Positions 2,345 through 18,493 of a DNA stretch of 64,000 nt are shown piece by piece (the first letter of the stretch is position 1; each line of letters opens with the position of its first letter). This stretch comes from Gluconobacter cadivus (GTDB lineage Bacteria; Pseudomonadota; Alphaproteobacteria; Acetobacterales; Acetobacteraceae), in contig NZ_JABCQI010000005.1 of NCBI RefSeq assembly GCF_015244745.1, positions 62,001 through 126,000 of the forward strand, given 5' to 3'. Both the position numbers and the translations under genes were made by a program. Under the pieces are notes generated by a model. That model was not told the DNA's origin and did no database searches. It saw only the letters and a list, made by a program, of their open reading frames with translations.

Positions 2345-2656
2345 TGGTGTCCGCGAGAGGATTCGAACCTCCGGCCCCAGGATTCTTACCACTTCGGTTT
2401 TCACCGCCATGCTGCGAAGCATGTTCGTGGTCTGGACTGTCTCTTCACCACAACTGCGAAAAACACAGTCAAGGTGTTGCCCGTACAGTCTCTACACCTT
2501 CGTTCCAGCGCACCGGAACGCTTGGCTCGGGATTGGCACGATCAAGACGATCAGAGCGTTCCCCGAATTTGAGCAAATCCACCATGCGGTTTCCCCTCAT
2601 GGCGCCCAATTCAAACCTTAGGAATCCTGTGCTCTATCCTGCTGAGCTACGCGGAC
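2345..2656 (-). tRNA. tRNA-Arg(CCU) interrupted by a group I intron
   Basis: Read on the minus strand, the 5' exon (2656-2620, 37 nt) opens with acceptor GTCCGCG, has a normal D arm (GCTC...GAGC) and anticodon 5' stem CAGGA, and ends at the anticodon CCT. The 3' exon (2384-2345, 40 nt) begins AATCCTG, has the T-loop TTCGAAT, closes the acceptor with CGCGGAC and encodes ACCA. Spliced, the anticodon arm is CAGGA-TTCCTAA-TCCTG, so the anticodon is CCU and the tRNA reads AGG. The interruption lies between U36 and A37, after the third anticodon base. Introns in tRNA-Arg(CCU) anticodon loops are known from Agrobacterium and other alphaproteobacteria. Only splicing gives a functional tRNA here. Confidence 0.95.
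2385..2619 (-). ncRNA. group I intron (Azoarcus-like, IC3-type) in tRNA-Arg(CCU)
   Basis: A 235-nt insert with no internal ORF. The RNA starts just after the U of CCU and ends in G (omega-G). P1 forms between exon CCU plus AA and UUGGG, giving the diagnostic U-G pair at the 5' splice site, closed by an 8-nt loop. P2 is GCCAUG/CAUGGU with a GAAA tetraloop. The core strings CAAAUUCGG, CCGAGCCAAGC, GAAGGUGUAGAGACU and GUGGUGAAG...AGUCC match the Azoarcus tRNA-Ile intron layout for J3/4, P4-P6, P3/P7 and P8-P7. A 3' hairpin CGGU-GAAA-ACCG supplies an L9-type GAAA loop. Known members self-splice with a guanosine cofactor. The secondary structure was drawn by eye. Confidence 0.93.
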
Positions 2657-17314: not shown

Positions 17315-18493
17315 ATGATGAACCCCGATGTGATTGTGCTCGGAGCCGGTGCAGCGGGGCTGATGGCGGCGGCTGTTGCAGGGCAGAACGGTGCGCGGGT
17401 TCTGGTTCTGGATCACGGGGCGGAGCCGGGACGCAAGATCCTGATCTCGGGCGGCGGGCGGTGCAATTTCACACATCTCGAAACCGGCCCGAACTGTTTC
17501 ATTTCCCAGAACCGTCATTTCGCCCGCTCCGCGCTGGCACGCTATACGCCGCAGGATTTTCTGAAACTCGTGAACCGCTATGGCATTGCCTGGCACGAGA
17601 AGGCGCGTGGACAGCTTTTCTGTGATGGCTCGGCCGGGCAGATCGTGGATATGCTGGTTTCGGAATGTCGGGCCGCTGGCTGCGAATTTAGGGTGCAGAC
17701 GCGGATTCTGGACGTGCGCCGGGCAGAGCACGGATTTATTGTCGTCACGGATGGCGGCGAGATCCGCACGGGCTCTGTGATCCTTGCGACGGGTGGGCTG
17801 TCCATTCCCAAGCTCGGGGCTTCTGATCTGTCGTTACGGCTGGCGCGGAAGTTCGGACTGCGCGTGGTGCCGACGGCCCCGGCGCTCGTGCCGCTGGTTC
17901 TGGAAGATGCCGATCCGGAGCTTGCAGGCGTTTCGCTGCCGATTGTGGCGCGGGTGGGCAAGAAAGGGCCGCGCTTTGAGGACGGGATGGTCTTCACCCA
18001 TCGCGGCGTGTCAGGTCCGGCGATTTTGCAGATTTCGTCCTATCTGGAAAACGGTGATGCGGCGCAGATTGATCTGCTGCCAGGGCAGAATGCGCTGAAC
18101 GTGTTGCTGAAGGTTAAAAAAGACCGTCCGAAAGCGCTCCCGCCGAGCCTGCTGGAAGCTCTGCCCCAACGGCTGGCGCGTGCTCTGGCGGTGGGAATGG
18201 GCGATACGATGCTGGCGAACCAGCCGGACCGTGCGATCAAGGCACTGGCTGAGCGGATTTCGAACTGGCAGCTTCGTCCCGCCGGGACGGAGGGCTACGC
18301 CAAGGCGGAAGTCATGCGTGGCGGGATCGACACGCGGGATCTGTCGTCCCAGACGCTGGAAGCCCGGGAAATTCCCGGGCTTTACGCGATCGGAGAAGCT
18401 GTGGACGTCACGGGCTGGCTTGGCGGACACAATTTCCAGTGGGCTTGGGCCAGCGGTGTGGCGGCAGGGCAGGCCGCAGGCGGGCATCGCTGA
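17315..18493 (+). CDS. HI0933-family (BaiN/RdsA-type) FAD-dependent oxidoreductase
   Basis: 392 residues. A dinucleotide-binding fold opens the protein (VIVLGAGAAGLMAA), followed by the family motif GRKILISGGGRCNFTH, the mid-domain ILATGGLSIPKLGASDL and a C-terminal FAD block IPGLYAIGEAVDVTGWLGGHNFQWAWASG. These are hallmarks of the HI0933 flavoproteins. Physiological substrate is generally unknown. Two tandem ATG codons (17315, 17318) are possible starts. It follows the GST gene closely. Confidence 0.88.
   Translation: MMNPDVIVLGAGAAGLMAAAVAGQNGARVLVLDHGAEPGRKILISGGGRCNFTHLETGPNCFISQNRHFARSALARYTPQDFLKLVNRYGIAWHEKARGQLFCDGSAGQIVDMLVSECRAAGCEFRVQTRILDVRRAEHGFIVVTDGGEIRTGSVILATGGLSIPKLGASDLSLRLARKFGLRVVPTAPALVPLVLEDADPELAGVSLPIVARVGKKGPRFEDGMVFTHRGVSGPAILQISSYLENGDAAQIDLLPGQNALNVLLKVKKDRPKALPPSLLEALPQRLARALAVGMGDTMLANQPDRAIKALAERISNWQLRPAGTEGYAKAEVMRGGIDTRDLSSQTLEAREIPGLYAIGEAVDVTGWLGGHNFQWAWASGVAAGQAAGGHR

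Follow-up and report, generated by a model that had tools for sequence, protein, structure and literature searches.

The tRNA-Arg(CCU) gene of Gluconobacter cadivus is split within its anticodon loop by a group I intron, which we predict with high confidence to be intact and to self-splice, here and, most simply by descent, across the sampled genus. In the window, the 64-kb stretch of DNA that we analysed, ARAGORN with introns allowed found a sole tRNA, tRNA-Arg(CCT) at c[2345,2656] with an intron of 235 nt. Without introns, the program found zero tRNAs across the same 64 kb. Joining of the exons between U36 and A37 gave a 77-nt tRNA with an encoded CCA, a 5-bp anticodon stem and the 7-nt loop UUCCUAA. 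ARAGORN thus reproduced a sequence-only reading of this DNA, in which the exons rebuilt a tRNA with anticodon CCU around a 235-nt insert. The gene consists of three parts:

2620..2656, minus strand: 5′ exon of tRNA-Arg(CCU), from position 1 to U36 (at 2620), ARAGORN -i
2385..2619, minus strand: group I intron of 235 nt, beginning AAGG, with its final G at 2385
2345..2384, minus strand: 3′ exon of tRNA-Arg(CCU), from A37 to the encoded CCA, ARAGORN -i

The 5′ exon (query bases 1-39) was 100% identical in many relatives and the 3′ exon (query bases 38-77) in several. On its own strand the intron contains no ORF of at least 80 aa, as expected from its earlier description as ORF-free. A simple scan of 2200-2800 found no promoter- or terminator-like sites.

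The sequence-only reading had suggested a covariance search with a group I model. RF00028 matched the Arg intron from end to end in a 501-base stretch (42.9 bits, E 1e-9), below the gathering cut-off of 50 bits, which is a search threshold and not a biological defining feature. Across its whole genome, the Arg intron was the sole match at E up to 10 (E 1.6e-9). Since 42.9 bits falls short of the cut-off, a default Rfam scan of the window listed nothing, and since the intron splits the gene, the default tRNA scan was also silent. The suspicion that annotation overlooks this element was therefore justified for both default ARAGORN and default Rfam. All 20 loci scanned (18 Arg introns, including the window's own, and two Lys introns) matched RF00028 at E 6e-5 or better, and as 5 of the 20 reached the cut-off, the intron family is readily missed. 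For annotation, this means that default tRNA and Rfam scans overlook the only tRNA-Arg(CCU) gene found in the genome.

The strong evidence for the predicted fold is comparative and does not come from single-sequence folding, which beat shuffled sequences by a modest margin (z −2.46; one shuffle in 200 did equally well). We wrote a structure of 69 pairs by hand from the window copy and counted its pairs on a MAFFT alignment of 44 Arg introns, drawn from the 66 loci assigned to Arg. Of 3,029 cells, 92.8% pair, compared to 81.2% in shuffled alignments and 32-43% with partners slid. Forty-one of the 69 pairs changed on both sides, and none of 500 shuffles scored as high on any of five measures. 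Since the structure was derived from one member, the cells-paired measure is favoured and the double changes are the stronger sign. Compensatory changes were seen in P2, P3, P6a, P8 and P9. The helices that define the core and the 5′ splice site are:

2605..2622, minus strand: P1, exon CCU and intron AA (2622-2618) with UUGGG (2609-2605), U36.G at the splice site
2477..2576, minus strand: P3, UUGCUC (2576-2571) with GGGCAA (2482-2477)
2526..2567, minus strand: P4, UUCGGG (2567-2562) with CCCGAG (2531-2526)
2435..2490, minus strand: P7, the guanosine-binding helix, GACUGU (2490-2485) with ACAGUC (2440-2435), a pseudoknot with P3

The P1 pairs C-G, C-G and U.G occur in all 44 sequences, whereas in eight of the 44 the fourth pair does not form. 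Both the U-G pair in P1 and the GAAA loops described earlier are present in the window intron. In the 44 sequences, P3 is paired in 100% of cells and three of its six pairs changed on both sides, the first two varying by full compensation (C-G/U-A). P4 is paired in 93.9% of cells, with five of six pairs invariant, and P7 in 91.3%, with five of six pairs invariant and the sixth paired in 21 of 44. P6 and proximal P8 are paired in 100% of cells. As P4, P6 and P7 are nearly invariant in Arg introns, covariation speaks for P3 and P8 and not for these three helices. By eye, P7 of the Lys relatives is GACUU/AAGUC, changed on both sides. The fit is weaker for P5 (78.8% of cells) and distal P8 (143 of 219 cells); P5 is short and P5abc is absent from the fold. 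The intron's terminal G (G243 in the first row) does not vary in the alignment, but an ending in G was part of how we set the 3′ boundary, so the terminal-G rule is not independent. Overall, the fold combines a pseudoknotted P3-P7 core with P4, P6 and P8, a U.G pair at the splice site and a terminal G. The P3/P7 pairing, whose absence the earlier reading had named as evidence against an intron, is present. Together, ARAGORN, RF00028 and the 44-sequence fold support bear out a group I intron in the anticodon loop of tRNA-Arg(CCU), as that reading had claimed.

In the predicted reaction, P1 would, after transcription, set U36 of the anticodon opposite a G of the internal guide GGG, and a guanosine bound by P7 would attack after U36. 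Attack by the freed 5′ exon behind the intron's final G would then link U36 to A37 and yield a complete tRNA that reads AGG.

The window finding is already known in kind and in genus, since PMC4596401 covers five acetic acid genera that include Gluconobacter. Note c to Table 1 of that paper gives one tRNA (Arg) split by a group I intron-homologous sequence in Asaia, Acetobacter pasteurianus, Gluconobacter oxydans, Komagataeibacter and Gluconacetobacter; structure, boundaries and anticodon are absent from the passages available. In Bartonella, the tRNA-Arg(CCU) group I intron BbgpI splices in vivo and in vitro (PMC7717549, with Paquin 1999 in its reference list). These two papers agree with the earlier statement that the family is not new. 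Like the alphaproteobacterial tRNA-Arg(CCU) introns of Agrobacterium and Bartonella, as they are described in the text available (PMC7717549), the window intron is small, lies in the same tRNA and is inserted after CCU, where they splice. It differs from them in host genus and sequence; we saw no functional difference, with Bartonella compared by description. The subgroup IC3 introns of Azoarcus tRNA-Ile(CAU) and cyanobacterial and plastid tRNA-Leu(UAA) are likewise small group I introns of tRNA anticodon loops, according to the available part of PMC3984707, and differ by description in tRNA and insertion site. From the portion available, PMC5733544 lists cyanobacterial tRNA-Lys(CTT) "group I introns" of 22-49 nt; in our judgement, these inserts are too short for a group I intron.

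We determined which tRNAs could read AGG in this genome (32 contigs, 99.99% complete). Apart from the split gene, we found 45 tRNAs, including Arg ACG (two), CCG and UCU, and no second tRNA-Arg(CCU) was among the tRNAs found. The list also lacks tRNA-Ile(GAU) and tRNA-Ala(UGC); these genes sit in rRNA operons and are often lost from draft assemblies. AGG is rare but used, making up 53 of 16,322 codons and appearing in 22 of 29 largely non-overlapping window ORFs of at least 250 aa. The sequence-only reading had AGG decoding depend on splicing unless other tRNAs read the codon. Its proviso matters here and the dependence is not clear-cut, since tRNA-Arg(UCU) (L056) is present and may share the reading of AGG by wobble, so that decoding need not depend on splicing.

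The presence of tRNA-Arg(UCU) and the rarity of AGG would also suit a cell in which the intron is inactive and no tRNA-Arg(CCU) is produced, leaving both AGA and AGG to tRNA-Arg(UCU). We regard such a cell as very unlikely, because a dead gene would drift, whereas here both the exons and the core helices have been kept in the genus and in more distant relatives, with compensatory changes. In addition, the 12 contiguous matches that we fetched from the 40 intron-bearing genomes, excluding weaker ones (at most 80%, within bases 4-67), were all Lys, Thr-CGT or Arg-TCT genes and none was CCU. The low Rfam score might instead mean that some other kind of insertion landed in the anticodon loop by chance. 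This is less probable still, to the point of being negligible: the match to RF00028 runs from end to end at E 1e-9, the P3/P7 pseudoknot is present, and the U.G and terminal-G splice-site rules hold.

Our preferred reading, a self-splicing group I intron, fits the distribution among relatives. With the Arg intron as query, 79 of 195 relatives matched, including its own genome and 25 of 25 others of the genus; all 26 sampled genus genomes thus carry the intron. With the joined tRNA as query, 193 of 195 matched, and the seven contiguous genes fetched from intron-free relatives (G104, G160, G151, G107, G063, G146 and G092) were all tRNA-Arg(CCT). The simplest account is descent within the genus, all sampled members of which have the intron; intron-free alleles occur in other parts of the family and class.

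Related introns also occur in other tRNAs. We fetched 87 loci around intron matches, of which 86 gave an intron hit. Since ARAGORN splice choices tie in score, we assigned hosts by exon patterns and by eye; with long introns, the program mislabels many relatives (His, Phe, Tyr, Leu-AAG). The host was Arg(CCU) at 66 of 86 loci (63 by exon pattern; L048, L119 and L127 by eye), Leu(UAA) at 12, Lys(UUU) at three (two with the intron at 35/36, one at 34/35) and Thr(GGU) at three. A further locus, L043, is Thr-like and cut off by a contig end. At L044 (G049:C1 around 444449), a related intron lies in a tRNA-Leu-like gene for which the splice choices weighed by eye gave no normal 7-nt loop; a tRNA-Leu(CAA) lies ~100 bases downstream. 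In G128, the intron-bearing tRNA-Leu(UAA) has a neighbour 1.5 kb away (L188, C1 around 2159086) that, by eye, is an intact but unusual tRNA-Leu(UAA)-like gene. In each group the guide suits the host tRNA, being GGAG in 10 of 10 Lys introns, GAGT in 12 of 12 Leu introns and TTGCC in 3 of 3 Thr introns.

We built a tree of 91 introns with the first 8 nt removed, adding eight further named Lys introns and omitting L134 and L137 (duplicates), L043, L119 and L127. The tree is consistent with a single origin for each of the Leu, Lys 35/36 and Thr groups. The Lys group adjoins the Arg intron of G094 on a branch of 1.09 changes per column with unsettled bootstrap, and we are unsure of its parent. The Lys(UUU) intron at 34/35 rather than 35/36 (L132, G130:C38) groups with the Thr introns. 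A search with the Lys junction pattern returned 12 named hits, of which 10 were genuine split tRNA-Lys(UUU) genes, from Gluconobacter, Acetobacter, Brytella and Gluconacetobacter; the other two (L136 and L145) were chance matches. This pattern is rare, with 3 of 397 in an evenly drawn family sample that does not include G010. We dropped the corresponding Arg count (349 of 397 in the family), as that pattern was too loose and many listed matches were chance.

One Lys intron lies in a prophage. In Gluconacetobacter dulcium (G394), the native tRNA-Lys(UUU) is broken in its anticodon loop by a 39-kb prophage at C3:114927-153928 (L175-L177). The intron-free halves share a 9-bp core, ACTTTTAAT, at C3:114927 and C3:153920, 38,993 bp apart. 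The 46-kb stretch examined contains no further copies of the core, and ARAGORN called no intact tRNA at either junction. Two genes lie near the ends of the element:

G394 C3:115089-116393: integrase, PF00589, adjacent to the left core
G394 C3:153514-153797: split tRNA-Lys(UUU), 122 bp inside the right core

The intron of this tRNA-Lys(UUU) splits the core into ACTTT and TAAT. Eight of 10 proteins tested fall between the cores, in the order, from the left, integrase, tail sheath, tape measure, terminase, portal, capsid and two baseplate proteins. Thus, the element is a prophage of a contractile-tailed phage. It has 50% GC, compared to 63-67% in the flanks.

This arrangement resembles the tRNA-dependent lysogeny of mycobacteriophage Fionnbharth, for which the available text of PMC10865867 describes a short core in tRNA-Lys(UUU), a native tRNA that is not rebuilt and the same tRNA on the element. 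The G. dulcium prophage likewise has a short core in tRNA-Lys(UUU), leaves the native gene unrebuilt and carries its own tRNA-Lys(UUU), with a tyrosine integrase adjacent. Unlike in Fionnbharth, the core in the replacement tRNA is interrupted by a group I intron. The available text of PMC10865867 uses the word "intron" once, in a reference title, and that of PMC11476347 never uses it.

A second case involves tRNA-Thr(GGU). In G049, the native gene is broken in the anticodon loop at the core CTTGGTAA, and ~107 bp past the break is an intron-bearing tRNA-Thr, after which come an integrase and a relaxase (L184, C23:518520-523456). The 3′ half of the broken gene is on another, unlinked contig (L185, C10:31237-31282). 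This insertion is probably a mobile element with an integrase and a relaxase.

We searched for further broken genes. A joined tRNA-Lys query found both intron-free halves in G394, the 5′ half alone in G465 and G010, and none in the Brytella genome (G103). Thus, a broken intron-free copy accompanies the intron-bearing copy in three of four Lys 35/36 genomes, the four being part of at least 10 species with this intron; G130, with its Lys intron at the other site, was searched and lies outside this count. In G465 and G010, the intron-bearing gene is not assigned to an element. A broken intron-free copy was found in 1 of 4 Thr genomes (G049), 0 of 12 Leu genomes and 0 of 40 Arg genomes. Two apparent broken Leu genes were rejected, as that in G045 is a contig overlap and that in G128 is another, intact tRNA. 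In Gluconobacter sphaericus (G010), the intron-free tRNA-Lys(UUU) is broken after the anticodon loop (L180, C12:48013-48051) and the intron-bearing copy is on another contig; by eye, the broken gene adjoins insertion element- or transposase-like sequence. The neighbours of the Acetobacter Lys loci, viewed by eye, gave no sign of an element.

These layouts suggest, tentatively, that group I introns of this lineage shield replacement tRNAs, an idea we hold to be possible though doubtful and against which the above counts of broken copies weigh. Some phages and elements of acetic acid bacteria and their relatives would insert in the anticodon loop of an essential tRNA (Lys-UUU, Thr-GGU), destroying it, and would bring a substitute gene. 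An intron placed exactly in the loop would break the integrase core and keep the element's own tRNA safe from attack, and self-splicing of that intron would restore a working tRNA. The available text of PMC10865867 raises the speculation that the tRNA gene of one plasmid may become the integration site of a second; an intron in the loop could prevent such an attack. We observed the layout in one prophage and, over two unlinked contigs, in one probable mobile element; from it we infer the choice of integrase, the recombination, the essentiality of the tRNAs, the shielding and any link to Arg. Chromosomal intron-bearing tRNAs, perhaps including the tRNA-Arg(CCU) of the window, might be left-overs of such substitutes, with the Arg link itself of low probability. 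If true, bacterial tRNAs would have a reason to hold introns in the anticodon loop beyond the "selfish element": the introns would keep the tRNA working and hidden from integrases that recombine there. Among titles and abstracts of the open-licence PMC literature, we found no report of the Lys or Thr introns or of shielding.

Applied to the window, this idea would make the Gluconobacter tRNA-Arg(CCU) intron what remains, now fixed, of a replacement tRNA brought by a mobile element, the origin proposed for its Lys and Thr relatives. Such an origin has some appeal, as a prophage and, probably, an integrative element have introns of this lineage in their replacement tRNAs, and the tree puts the Lys introns among the Arg introns of acetic acid bacteria, albeit on a very long branch. 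We nevertheless judge it improbable. At E up to 1e-6, a second tRNA-Arg(CCU) 5′ half was found in none of the 40 genomes with an Arg intron (40 of 66), and the tRNA end is not repeated elsewhere in the window. Extra 3′ pieces in G086 (18 kb from tRNA-Lys(UUU)) and G045 (28 nt) are, on the evidence seen, not parts of a broken tRNA-Arg(CCU). On the sole virus-labelled contig that has an Arg intron, the repeat is of the tRNA's 3′ end and not of the loop. Since the second 5′ half is absent from the 40 genomes, we keep the Arg intron as an ordinary resident intron.

That contig came from a search of virus contigs with exact patterns, in which an intron-bearing tRNA was called when the 3′ exon lay at a fitting distance. 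The Arg pattern gave one such tRNA among six stretches, and the Lys, Thr and Leu patterns gave none among two, 10 and 14 stretches, respectively. On the 18.5-kb IMG/VR contig (L195/G484:C1), the intron-bearing tRNA-Arg(CCU) is at 1845-2160 and a 17-bp repeat of its 3′ end is at 17785-17801, 15.6 kb away. Given this repeat, the case looks like a host gene beside a provirus. A provirus that attached at the 3′ end of the split tRNA would give such a layout.

Plasmids also matched the window gene. Six of 18 matching plasmid records come from E. coli or Klebsiella; their matches are intron-like, at ~68-70% identity. The two that we opened, LR890263.1 (L146) and NZ_CP139688.1 (L147), each carry an aac(3) resistance gene within 1 kb.
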